Assembly: GCA_016188075.1 (NCBI GenBank)
Contig: JACPIO010000005.1
Coordinates: 1-50,965, forward strand
Direction: 5' to 3'
DNA from: Candidatus Wolfebacteria bacterium
GTDB taxonomy: Bacteria > Patescibacteriota > Minisyncoccia > UBA6257 > UBA9933
DNA length: 50,965 nt
Below, piece by piece: positions 1-7,465 of the stretch. The position numbers were made by a program, and so were the translations under genes. Every line of letters begins with the position of its first letter. The stretch's first letter is position 1. The notes under the pieces were generated by a model, which did not search any database, had not been told where the DNA came from, and saw nothing but the letters and a program-made list of their open reading frames with translations.

Positions 1-760
1 CTTTAATTTTTTCATCAATCCGAGCGTCCTCTGCCTCGTTGCGTTTAAAAAAATCTTCCCGGGCAATGGCAGCCGGAATAATTTTTACCTCCACCGACTC
101 CGGCCTCTCTTTAATCTTGAGGATATCGACATTTTTGACTTCGACAAATTTTTCCGGCACAACAATTCTTTCCGTTCCCTTAATGATTTCTTTCGTTTGA
201 GGGTCAACCGCCGCTACTAGAACCGAATTTTCGGCTCCAAAAATTCGTGAATTGCCCGTGAAGAATTCCGTTCCAAAAGCCGTGCCGCGAACCGTTGCCA
301 CCGCATTAGCGGTTTTCACTTCCCATAAAGAGTCGGGGGTGACAAGAGTGATAATTTTAGACCAAACTCGGCCCACCACCAGTGAAATTTTTACCGTTAA
401 TTTCTCGCTTTGAGCGTTAAATGTGCCTTCGCTCAAAACAAATTTCGTGCCGGGCTCGAAACGCGCCGCCGAACCGTCGGGAAAATGGATATTAGCCCGG
501 CCATTTTTCGCCGCTTCTATTTTGACGCCGGAAGAAAGTTCGTCGCCGGTTTTAAGTTCGCGGATTTTCGAATCATCATCTGGTTTTATTTCAAAAACCG
601 AAGGCGAAACAATTTCAATCCAGGGCTTGGAAACCGCTGGAGCGGTTTTTGGTAACGGCTGATTGCCGGGTGAATCAAAAGTCGGTTTACCGAAAAAGTA
701 AAAAGCGCCAGCCGCGATAACCGCTGTCCCTAAAATGCTTAATAGAATTGTGGTTTTCAT
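1..760 (-). CDS. FecR-domain-like protein with N-terminal signal/TM segment (C-terminus beyond window)
   Basis: Minus-strand frame open from ATG at 760 (MKTTILLSILGTAVIAAGAFYFFGKP...) to the window edge; contains a FecR-like stretch (FPDGSAARFEPGTKFVLSEG...ANAVATVRGTAFGTEF). Overlaps the upstream gene stop by 4 nt (ATGA). Confidence 0.75.
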   Translation of the reverse strand, partial: MKTTILLSILGTAVIAAGAFYFFGKPTFDSPGNQPLPKTAPAVSKPWIEIVSPSVFEIKPDDDSKIRELKTGDELSSGVKIEAAKNGRANIHFPDGSAARFEPGTKFVLSEGTFNAQSEKLTVKISLVVGRVWSKIITLVTPDSLWEVKTANAVATVRGTAFGTEFFTGNSRIFGAENSVLVAAVDPQTKEIIKGTERIVVPEKFVEVKNVDILKIKERPESVEVKIIPAAIAREDFFKRNEAEDARIDEKIK

Positions 761-1101
761 CTAATTATCGTTCCGGGTGGAACGGGTTTTTCCGGAATTA
801 AAAGTATGGGTTCGTTGCCATCGCAATTTACCGCGAGGAGCATTCCTTGGCTTTCGAGCCCCACTATGGTTCGCGGCTCTAAATTGGCGACAATGACGAT
901 TTCTTTATCAATTAAATTTTCCGGCTCGTAAAATTGAGCGATGCCGGCGATGATTTGATGGGGCACACTCTCTCCCGCTTCGTTTTTATCGCCGCAATCA
1001 ACTTTCAATTTCAAAAGTTTTTCGGAATTTTCAACCCGTTCGGCGAAAATAATTTTAGCGACCCGCAGATCTAACTTTTTGAAATCTTCAAAGCTTATCA
1101 T
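757..1101 (-). CDS. tRNA-binding (OB-fold) domain protein, MetG C-terminal/Trbp111-like
   Basis: MISFEDFKKLDLRVAKI...HQIIAGIAQFYEPENLIDKEIVIVANLEPRTIVGLESQGMLLA is characteristic of the MetRS C-terminal tRNA-binding domain. Confidence 0.85.
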   Translation of the reverse strand: MISFEDFKKLDLRVAKIIFAERVENSEKLLKLKVDCGDKNEAGESVPHQIIAGIAQFYEPENLIDKEIVIVANLEPRTIVGLESQGMLLAVNCDGNEPILLIPEKPVPPGTIIR

Positions 1102-1138: not shown

Positions 1139-2296
1139 TCATGCTCCCTGATTCATGAGTCTCCCCTCCATCAATCTCCTTTCCGCGGCTCCGACTTTCA
1201 TCCTCTGAATAATACGGCTAAAAAATTGAATTGTCGAATCGTAGGTCGGGCGATCAACCGGATAAGGCGTGGCGTCTTTACCGCCGTGGGCAAACGAATA
1301 GCGGGCCGGATCAACATAGGAAGGCTTGGCGCCGTAGATAATTTCCGAGACTAAACTTAAGGCGCGCATTGTTTTGGGGCCCACGCCCGGAAAAGCCAAA
1401 AGATTTTCATAATTTTTCGGCTTGGCTTCAGATACTTTATACAAAATTTTGTCTAAATACTTGCTTTTAGTAAAATCTTCGGCGACGACCGGATGAGTGT
1501 GAAATTCCTTATTTTCCAAATTGATAAAAGCTAATTGCTGCTGCCCGACTTTTATTTTAATAGATTGAGATAAATCTGAACTGTGGCGACGCAGAATTTT
1601 AATGTCATTCATCAGCGACCCGTAACCAGCTTGAACAAGTTCAGTGGAAATTTGACGCGTTTCATCGCTTTCATTCGCGGTTAAATTCAAGGTTAGCGTT
1701 TTTATCGGACTTATAATCGCGGTGTGAGGTTCTGAAACCAAATCAGTCGCTTTTTCCGAATGCCAGTGATAACGGCGAGCTTGGCCTTTTAGGGCATTCA
1801 TTCCCTGCTGAACTACGGCCCAAGCGCCGCTTTTGGAAAAGAAAAAAGCATGATGATAAATCTGGAAGCCGTCTTGAATCAAGGCGCTGTCCACTTTGGC
1901 GGTCATTCGGGAATTATAGACGAGATTTCGACCGCCTCTCTCTGGCAAAGCCAAAAAATCCGCGCCGCGTTCGATTTCTTCCGGAGCTTTGCGCGAAGTC
2001 TTGCCTTTTCCGCCAGCAATGAAAATACCGAATTCTCTTTGTTGGCCGCGAATGGCTTCTTTCAAGGCCGCGGTTAAAATCGTCGTAAGCCCGCTCGCGT
2101 TCCAATCAAAGGCCAAAACTGTTCCCAAAGACTGAAACCAGCCCGGATCCGCAATGCGTTTTATAAATTCATCCGGGCCGTATTCCTCGTTCATTACATG
2201 CATCATCTGCCGGCCAAGCCGAACCATTCTCTCAAAAAGCCATTTAGGACATTTACCGTAATCAAGACCGAAAGTAGCGATGCCTCTGTTTATCAT
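1139..2296 (-). CDS. DUF763 domain-containing protein
   Basis: 385 aa; RGIATFGLDYGKCPKWLFERMVRLGRQM...FPGVGPKTMRALSLVSEIIYGAKPSYVDPARYSFAHGGKDATPYPVDR, typical of DUF763. Confidence 0.8.
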   Translation of the reverse strand: MINRGIATFGLDYGKCPKWLFERMVRLGRQMMHVMNEEYGPDEFIKRIADPGWFQSLGTVLAFDWNASGLTTILTAALKEAIRGQQREFGIFIAGGKGKTSRKAPEEIERGADFLALPERGGRNLVYNSRMTAKVDSALIQDGFQIYHHAFFFSKSGAWAVVQQGMNALKGQARRYHWHSEKATDLVSEPHTAIISPIKTLTLNLTANESDETRQISTELVQAGYGSLMNDIKILRRHSSDLSQSIKIKVGQQQLAFINLENKEFHTHPVVAEDFTKSKYLDKILYKVSEAKPKNYENLLAFPGVGPKTMRALSLVSEIIYGAKPSYVDPARYSFAHGGKDATPYPVDRPTYDSTIQFFSRIIQRMKVGAAERRLMEGRLMNQGA

Positions 2297-2368
2297 AGGA
2301 ATTAGTAGATAGTAGTTAGGAGTTAGTTTTATAAGGATTATTTTAGCATAAAATTAAGTAGTTTAAAA

Positions 2369-2885
2369 AAGTTGACAAAGCGGAGCAGGTGTGATAGATT
2401 TACAAAATCGCCTTTACGTATCGCGGCGATAGAAAGGAGGGCCAATGGCGCGATCGCCGCCCTCGCTCTAGAACCTTGTTTTTTTCAGGACCCCCCAAAC
2501 CAAAAAACTTGGGACCCTCGCATGGTACCTCTAGTGGGGTGCCACTCCGCCAAGAGCAACCGAGGGCTAAGCCAGAGCGCCGCCCTAGCTCTATGACAGC
2601 GGGTCCCAGTAGGCGTCCCCGGGACGACCTACGGCGCAGTTAACAAGGGGTCGCTGCGCTGAGTCAGTCGGCATGGGCATATGTCTTTTAAATGCGGGAA
2701 GTTGAGCGCGCTGAGTAGAGAGGTAAGTGAGCAAATCTACCCTACGGAAAGTAAACGAGGTAGGTGGATTACTTGCCGCTGAAAAGCACGCGAGCCGCTA
2801 CTATGGCCCAGCCTAGAAAGGCTCTACTTTCTCGGGGGTTGTACGGCCCTTGGGTGTCTTCGGATACCCAAGGGCTTTTTATTTC
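2369..2885 (+). ncRNA. Large structured ncRNA candidate (about 475 nt) with its own promoter and terminator; family not recognised
   Basis: Promoter TTGACA-17 nt-TAGATT at about 2370-2400; many local helices (e.g. TAGGcGTCCccggGACgaCCTA, GCGCAG..CTGCGC, ATCTACCCTAC..GTAGGTGGAT); ends in CCCTTGGGTgtcttcggATACCCAAGGG + T-tract at about 2855-2884. No convincing long ORF. Confidence 0.6.
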
Positions 2886-3439
2886 AAGACGATAAATTTT
2901 GTTTCACTTACCTGCTCTTCTAATTTTTGCACAATGGGATTATTTAATTTCTCTTTTAAAATTTTTAGGACTGCTTCGTGGTACTCGAAATATTTTTCCG
3001 GTGAGGGGCATTCAAAACTTTTCCATAAATCATCGCCGTAAGTTTCGTAAGCATCTTTTAGCGACATCAAGTTGTGAATTTTATCAGCAACACAGACCAT
3101 TAAACTTTCAAAGCTTGCGGATTTTAAATTCTCCCGATATTTTACTTTCCGTTCTTCCCAAGCTTTAATATTTTTATCTTCGGTGACACCCAAAACGATT
3201 TCTTTTATTTTTGCACCAAAGTCTTTTTCAAGATTGTCGGGGGTATAAGGAGTATCTTCGATAGTATCATGGAGAATGCCGCTGACTATAATATTTTCAT
3301 CGTCAATATAATCCAAAAGAATTATCGCAATCGAGAAAAGATGAGAAATATACGGCGTCCCATCGCGCTTTCTTTCTTGATTTCGATGTAAAAAACTCGC
3401 CTTTTTAATTGCTTTTTCAATCTGGGGGGTTAATGCCAC
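2879..3439 (-). CDS. HD-domain protein, (p)ppGpp hydrolase (SpoT/MESH1)-like
   Basis: HRNQERKRDGTPYISHLFSIAIIL...SGILHDTIEDTPYTPDNLEKDFG...VCVADKIHNL: HD and ED motifs of RelA/SpoT hydrolase domains. Confidence 0.8.
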   Translation of the reverse strand: MALTPQIEKAIKKASFLHRNQERKRDGTPYISHLFSIAIILLDYIDDENIIVSGILHDTIEDTPYTPDNLEKDFGAKIKEIVLGVTEDKNIKAWEERKVKYRENLKSASFESLMVCVADKIHNLMSLKDAYETYGDDLWKSFECPSPEKYFEYHEAVLKILKEKLNNPIVQKLEEQVSETKFIVLK

Positions 3440-3451
3440 GCTGGTAATACT

Positions 3452-3602
3452 CCGCCCGTGCGCCGTGCGGCAGCTCTCGGAGCCCTGACGGGCTTGGTCC
3501 GAGCACTCAATACATTGAGTGCTCGGCCGTCAGGGCGAGAGCGCAGGCGGTCGTCCCGCTTGCGGCGGGACGAACCGCCGGTGCCGTCAGGCGCATGGGC
3601 GG
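3452..3602. repeat. Nested-palindrome element, family B copy 1
   Basis: Outer stem CCGCCCGTGCGCC/GGCGCATGGGCGG; inner GCCCTGACGG/CCGTCAGGGC containing GAGCACTCAATACATTGAGTGCTC; third hairpin GGCGGTcGTCCCGC..GCGGGACgaACCGCC. Confidence 0.8.
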
Positions 3603-3625
3603 AATGTTTTACACAATTTATTAAA

Positions 3626-4696
3626 CTATGGTTGTAAAGTGCTCGTGCTATTGCCGTTTATGGAAATTACCACTTCTCTTACTCCGGGGAACTGCTTTAA
3701 TGTTTCTTTAATTTGCGCTCGAATCCAAGCTATCCGGCACGAGCCGCTGGTGTCGCGGGCCAAACTATCATCGAAATCAGCCTTAGCCACTCCATTATCA
3801 ATAATCAAAGATTTAACCCCTACTCCCTGATTTATATTCGTAAAATAACCTTGATTTTTTTCTTCGTCAGTCGGACCCTTTAATAATTCTTCGAGCGCCA
3901 GCCTACCAACCAAAAGCGTCTTTGGTATGGTTCGGGTAACCGAAAAAACTCTTTCGCAGGAAACCGACGAACCCATTTTGGTATTACCAAAATAAACATT
4001 CACCCAAACATTATTTTTCGAATCATATTTTAACGGAATTATAACTCCGTCGCCAATCTCTAAAGTGATGTCGGATCCTTTTTCGACGAGCGACGAGTCA
4101 AAAGAAATTTTCTTCGTGAAATCAATATACCAGTTTGATTCCGAAGCAGACTGTTCAGTGCCCGAAGTATTCACAATAATTCCGTTTTCATAAATTTTCT
4201 TATCTCCGGCAATAATCCTCGCGTTCGTAGTCGGCGGCGTCGAACCATTAAAAACCCTAACTTTACCGCTGATCTCAAAAATTTCGCTAACGGATTCATT
4301 GGCTTTAGGAGAAATTACAATGATCTTGGGGGCTTTAATTACTTTAATCTCCCGAACCAAAACATCGCTGTTGTCTTTTACCTCGCCTTTGGCTTCAATT
4401 TCGAAACCACGTTCCAAAAAATTCAAATCAGTTTGATGGCCGGTTTCGTCGAATAATTTCGTCTCCGGCGTCAAAGCCAAACTTATTTCTTCGCCATTTT
4501 CCTTTTTCAACAAAATCACCTTGGCGCCCAAAGCTATGTCTAAAATCTCGCCCTTGACATTGATTTCTTTAGTGTCCGAAGAAGAAGAAACTCTCGGATC
4601 TAAAATATACTGCCAAAGCGGACTTTGAAGATAAATATAAATTAAACTGCCGGCCAAAATAATGCCCATGCTTACCAACAAAAATGTTTTTCCCAT
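3626..4696 (-). CDS. Membrane-anchored protein with Gmad2 Ig-like and GerMN-like domains
   Basis: N-terminal TM; C-terminal RLALEELLKGPTDEEKNQGYFTNINQGVGVKSLIIDNGVAKADFDDSL...QFPGVREVVISING is GerMN-like; middle ISPKANESVSEIFEISGKVRVFNG is Gmad2-like. Confidence 0.8.
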   Translation of the reverse strand: MGKTFLLVSMGIILAGSLIYIYLQSPLWQYILDPRVSSSSDTKEINVKGEILDIALGAKVILLKKENGEEISLALTPETKLFDETGHQTDLNFLERGFEIEAKGEVKDNSDVLVREIKVIKAPKIIVISPKANESVSEIFEISGKVRVFNGSTPPTTNARIIAGDKKIYENGIIVNTSGTEQSASESNWYIDFTKKISFDSSLVEKGSDITLEIGDGVIIPLKYDSKNNVWVNVYFGNTKMGSSVSCERVFSVTRTIPKTLLVGRLALEELLKGPTDEEKNQGYFTNINQGVGVKSLIIDNGVAKADFDDSLARDTSGSCRIAWIRAQIKETLKQFPGVREVVISINGNSTSTLQP

Positions 4697-6768: not shown

Positions 6769-7443
6769 TCACTCTAAAGTAACCTCGCTAATATCATTCA
6801 ACGATAAATCGCGTAGCCACTCCTTAATAGATTGGCTATATTCATTTGCATCACCAAAAAATTTCGTTAATAGATTTTTATTGATAATTGAAGGGAAATT
6901 TTTCTGGCCAGCATAATCCAAGTGACTCGACCAACGATAACTATCTAAAAACTTTATAGTCTTTCTATGGTTTTTCAACTCTCTTTTGCGCCACTCCGGA
7001 TATTTCAGATCTAGAGGATTAAGATGAATATAGTATGGTAAATGGATGAAATGAGATTCTCTTCTTACTAAAATTGACTTATATCTACTCTCGAACAGCG
7101 GTCCTTTTCTTTGATATTTTCCATTAAAGTATTTGGCGTAACCCATGTTAACTTTTTTCATAAATTTCGATACGCCATTTTCAACCCTCGGGGTCAAAAG
7201 TAGATGGTAATGAGTAGGCATTAAACAAAAGCAATGAATATCCACTAGGAGTTTTCTAGGCCTTCTTTCAATCTTACGACTTGCGATGTCGTTAGATTGG
7301 TTAAAACGATAAAAGGTTGTATTGACCCGTTCTTGATCATTAAATTCAAACAGATCGTGTACAAAACGAAAATGATCTTGATTATCAACAAAAATTTTCT
7401 TCTGATCTACTCCTCTACTTAAAACATGGAACAATTCGTTCAT
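6769..7443 (-). mobile_element. REP-associated tyrosine transposase (RAYT), Y1/IS200-type
   Basis: MNELFHVLSRGVDQKKIFVD...VDIHCFCLMPTHYHLLLTP...KKVNMGYAKYFNGKYQRKGPLFESRYKSILV...YIHLNPL: Y1_Tnp HxH and catalytic region. The ORF track start is 9 nt upstream. Confidence 0.9.
7275..7294. repeat. REP-like palindrome (inverted orientation) within the RAYT ORF
   Basis: TACGACTTGCGATGTCGTTA, the reverse complement of the REP unit. Confidence 0.75.
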
Positions 7444-7465
7444 AAATATCATTTTATATGAAATT

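Follow-up and report, generated by a model that had tools for sequence, protein, structure and literature searches.

A candidate gene for a large structured noncoding RNA on an accessory block next to a SpoT-like hydrolase gene in a Candidatus Wolfebacteria genome

What is encoded by about 440 nt of foldable, GC-rich sequence without a credible ORF that lies between a DUF763 gene and an HD_4 gene in a Candidatus Wolfebacteria bacterium? Bacteria have few known large structured RNAs, and an RNA gene of 480 nt would deserve an explanation in a genome of 0.68 Mb, where there is little room for non-essential DNA. We addressed this question in the window, that is, the whole stretch of 50,965 nucleotides analysed here, which forms the start of contig C10 in a genome of 676 kb (26 contigs, 96% complete); genomes are small across the whole order. 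The explanation that we favor, and consider probable without holding it strongly, is a lineage-restricted, stand-alone gene for a large structured noncoding RNA, carried on an accessory block. The finding is sound but comes from one sequence, and with a single genome behind it the RNA is for now a candidate. The locus is organized as follows:

757-1101, minus strand: gene for a tRNA_bind protein
1139-2296, minus strand: DUF763 gene
2378-3602, no strand assigned: accessory block, found here but missing from the corresponding site in the nearest relative compared (alignment with locus L046)
2402-2882, plus strand: candidate large structured noncoding RNA of ~480 nt, with ends inferred from the promoter and the terminator
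2879-3439, minus strand: gene for an HD_4 protein of 186 aa with a SpoT-like hydrolase domain and no synthetase domain (Pfam HD_4, E 1.5e-17)
3451-3603, no strand assigned: large GC-rich palindromic element (MFE -122.4 kcal/mol for 3446-3606)
3626-4696, minus strand: gene for a Germane/GerMN protein

The candidate RNA gene is divergent from DUF763 and convergent with HD_4. Within and around it, we delineated the following elements, all on the plus strand:

2372-2400: sigma-70-type promoter, TTGACA-17-TAGATT with TG before the -10 element (consensus scan)
2432-2470: SD-like AAAGGAGG followed by the 8-codon ORF MARSPPSL (sequence inspection; translation putative)
2452-2593: direct repeat, copies at 2452-2470 and 2575-2593, 89% identical (repeat search)
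2510-2660: predicted middle domain, with helix 2510-2517/2601-2608 around two hairpins, then two further hairpins (pairing probabilities; z = -2.8)
2670-2813: predicted 3' domain, a long irregular arm (2722-2730/2769-2777 and 2735-2741/2759-2765) with a purine-rich loop (pairing probabilities)
2845-2882: intrinsic terminator with a 14-bp stem, UUCG loop and U-rich tail (consensus scan)

Transcription would run rightwards from the promoter, which matches the consensus at 10 of 12 positions, and would end at the terminator, giving a predicted transcript of about 475-480 nt. The terminator hairpin (2845-2876, 14 pairs closed by the UUCG loop) is followed by the tail TTTTTATTT and is strand-specific, with a U-run only on the RNA's side. 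Across 1.8 kb, the consensus scan returned three promoter-like sites against 2.3 expected by chance, so that the promoter by itself carries little weight. Judged by sequence, then, the stretch has a promoter and a terminator of its own, as a stand-alone noncoding RNA gene would. The sequence-only reading of this DNA had described the same promoter, a strong terminator and a size of about 475 nt, all of which hold, together with an SD-like AAAGGAGG near the 5' end opening an 8-codon ORF, both of which are present, with the ATG near 2445 by inspection. This putative ORF and its SD-like sequence sit in a hairpin (2437-2442/2459-2464) with pairing probabilities of 0.97-1.00. The longer ORFs of the region, of 74 and 55 aa, matched no NCBIfam family.

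The GC content of the RNA body is 0.55-0.58 in 250-base windows versus 0.46 for the whole window, and the dense GC-rich helices noted earlier are borne out by folding. For 2404-2882, we obtained an MFE of -196.6 kcal/mol (z = -3.8); none of 100 dinucleotide shuffles was as good, and an independent run on the full stretch gave z = -3.4. Coding controls ranged from +0.2 to -1.2; the genome's own tmRNA (z = -4.0) and RNase P RNA (z = -6.4) both scored more strongly than the candidate RNA. The minus strand reached -2.7 with the terminator included, and without the terminator the values were -2.3 for the plus strand and -1.6 for the minus strand. By domain, z was -0.7 for the 5' part, -2.8 for the middle (2505-2660) and -1.1 for the 3' part (2661-2840). 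The terminator supplies part of the folding signal and the middle domain most of the remainder; the predicted 3' domain is weakly supported because its z is only -1.1. The candidate RNA is likely structured, with the caveat that energy is no proof by itself and that "structured" here refers to the folding energy of one sequence, since the searches found no homologues for covariation.

Known RNA families do not account for the candidate. Rfam 15 at gathering thresholds yielded no match in the whole window, and a permissive scan (E up to 10) of 2250-3000 returned three unrelated chance matches with E values of 3-8, two of which were the terminator hairpin only; a search proposed as a possible refutation of the sequence-only reading thus brought no high-scoring hit. 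ARAGORN detected neither a tRNA nor a tmRNA in the window. The hallmark motifs of RNase P, tmRNA and SRP RNA, previously reported as lacking, are indeed missing from the candidate RNA, as is the T-box core motif. Although the candidate is in the size class of tmRNA and has the layout of a stable RNA gene, tmRNA can be ruled out: there is no RF00023 match and no tRNA-like 5' or 3' end, and the genuine copy lies on another contig (G000:C26:65047-65395, 135 bits with RF00023). Class A RNase P RNA (RF00010) resembles the candidate in size class and helical density, and it is likewise excluded, since no model matches, the GAGGAAAGUCC and ACAGAA cores are absent, and the genome's own RNase P RNA is on a further contig (G000:C11:30162-30537), with its AGGAAAGUCCGG and ACAGAA cores aligned. 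That genuine copy scores 64.5 bits against an Rfam cut-off of 100, and several genomes of the same family have none above threshold. With these two RNAs placed elsewhere, the description of the stretch as an unassigned large structured RNA stands.

The covariance models for OLE, ROOL, GOLLD, raiA and the other large RNAs in Rfam gave no match either. The candidate resembles OLE, ROOL and GOLLD (PMC12286853) in being large, GC-rich, multi-helical, stand-alone and noncoding, at a roughly comparable size, and in having a biochemical role that is unknown; it differs in that those families show conservation and covariation in a large number of genomes, whereas the candidate is a single sequence with no known relative. 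A homo-oligomeric complex would be the mark of an ornate RNA of the OLE/ROOL/GOLLD type. A limited literature search found nothing on structured RNAs in the lineages considered here.

Extending the search to other genomes, in which the genus is represented by the source genome only, we detected no homologue of the candidate RNA by blastn in 40 relatives, 244 genomes of the order or 384 genomes sampled from the class. In the order and the class, blastn also gave short matches of 17-28 bases (E 0.001-0.1); these showed no extension in context and were rejected as chance, and the one longer nhmmer alignment (L040) lies inside a 598-aa reading frame and was discarded. Two single-sequence covariance models, built on 2670-2813 and 2510-2660, recovered only the source genome among the 244 order genomes; such models have limited reach and these were run with the stricter filters, by which distant structural relatives could be missed. 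DUF763 synteny revealed no RNA copy at 29 loci of relatives or at additional loci from the same family. Phage and plasmid records held nothing related, nor did four exact core patterns in IMG/VR or one in GTDB genomes, where the matches in Parabacteroides and Cyclobacteriaceae extend over 18 bases only and were rejected. Within the limits of these genomes and records, the candidate RNA is an orphan as far as sequence comparison goes. The homologues in sister genomes from which covariation was to be drawn did not materialize with either blastn or covariance models. If transcribed, the candidate would represent a new RNA family, probably a young one.

The comparison with the nearest relative by DUF763 protein (G006, 78% identical) adds an observation that is new here. 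This sister genus keeps the order tRNA_bind, DUF763 and Germane, with only ~160 bp between DUF763 and Germane in place of a block of about 1.2 kb that consists here of the RNA, the convergent HD_4 gene and the palindrome. In the alignment, homology with the sister locus runs up to the promoter TTGACA (~2378) and restarts at ~3602. The block was either gained in the source lineage or lost in the sister, and the RNA gene would be part of it, together with the SpoT-like hydrolase gene and the palindrome; as the sister lacks this block, the gain or loss of the RNA would be open to study. Although it lacks the RNA, the sister locus carries TTGACA-16-GATAAT (L046 1635-1662, 11 of 12 consensus positions), as far from the DUF763 start as the promoter is here; chance alone would be expected to give one promoter-like match in that stretch. 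Because this sequence occupies the same place, the promoter may be either older than the block or kept for another reason.

The hydrolase neighbor has features of its own. The HD_4 protein matches the hydrolase part of TIGR00691 spoT_relA below the cut-off and contains, by inspection, the HDxxED motif as HDTIED; given a stand-alone SpoT-like hydrolase domain with this motif, it is probably an alarmone hydrolase. Its sole match in relatives from the same family is the full-length RelA/SpoT protein, and proteins of similar size with up to 52% identity are patchily distributed elsewhere in the phylum. HD_4 was not found in viral contigs, and no PADLOC defense model matched it. Long gaps beside some HD_4 homologues were considered as RNA copies and rejected, as they have neither sequence likeness nor raised GC.

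How, then, should the stretch be explained? For an RNA gene speak the promoter and terminator framing a GC-rich noncoding stretch, and folding that beats dinucleotide shuffles; against it stand searches that turned up no homologue and hence no sign of selection, a promoter match close to chance expectation, and the modest z without the terminator, partly mirrored on the minus strand. The latter points feed the main rival, which we regard as somewhat unlikely, namely that the stretch is non-functional, GC-rich foldable accessory or decayed DNA with chance promoter-like and terminator-like sites. Conservation was found nowhere in the searches, the far end of the block holds a GC-rich palindrome, promoter-like matches occur near chance frequency and the minus strand folds almost equally well, all of which suits this rival; it fits less well with a promoter, a body and a strand-specific terminator in the right order and spacing around a stretch without an ORF, and with z values of -3.4 to -3.8 when the terminator is included. 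A functional alternative, which strikes us as unlikely, takes the RNA and the HD_4 hydrolase as one unit in which the RNA would control the hydrolase mRNA or bind its product. Their joint presence on a block that the sister lacks, the position of the HD_4 stop codon within the RNA's terminator tail, by which the 3' ends overlap, and the patchiness of small HD_4 genes, as expected of accessory genes, are consistent with such a unit, but the overlap amounts to only a few bases, and 18 small-HD_4 loci (30-52% identity) have no recognizable RNA copy alongside. A further reading, in which a new family of large structured RNA, limited to one narrow lineage with very small genomes, shares a small accessory element with the SpoT-like alarmone hydrolase gene and works together with the hydrolase, we rate as distinctly improbable.

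Two further possibilities tie the stretch to familiar RNA roles. Were the stretch a leader or attenuator, competing helices and the 8-codon ORF, whose SD lies in a hairpin, would sense translation and choose between two folds. The hairpin enclosing the SD and start codon is strong, and the 19-nt repeat copies, 123 nt apart, allow competing, mutually exclusive helices in the 5' half; the alternative pairing, which affects the hairpin containing the MARSPPSL ORF, is 3.6 kcal/mol less favorable in 2402-2660, and the prefix ending at 2600 has it as its MFE structure. A two-fold switch in the 5' half is thus a possibility on computed energies, but no plus-strand gene follows the terminator, the next gene being convergent, and a classical attenuator is disfavored for that reason; neither a T-box motif nor an Rfam riboswitch family is present, and we consider a leader very unlikely. 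A very divergent universal RNA is more improbable still, to the point of being scarcely credible. With tmRNA and RNase P RNA accounted for, SRP RNA is the only open candidate: across the source genome and 20 relatives, RF00169 had no match in 13 genomes and RF01854 none in 21, whereas control genomes match both. The candidate RNA, however, matches neither model and lacks the Ffh-binding apical motif (GGAAG..AGCAG), and relatives without an SRP match have no copy of the candidate either. In the order as a whole, SRP RNA is either very divergent or missing. We return to a stand-alone RNA gene; as no plus-strand gene lies downstream for regulation in cis, its product would most likely work in trans as an RNA, either by itself or together with a protein.

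The palindrome at the far end of the block, between the HD_4 and Germane genes, is a multi-armed element of 155 nt that occurs as a single copy in the window. Further along, at 6769-7452, the window encodes a Y1 transposase-like protein of the IS200 type; it may be a REP-associated transposase and might be relevant to the GC-rich palindromes.
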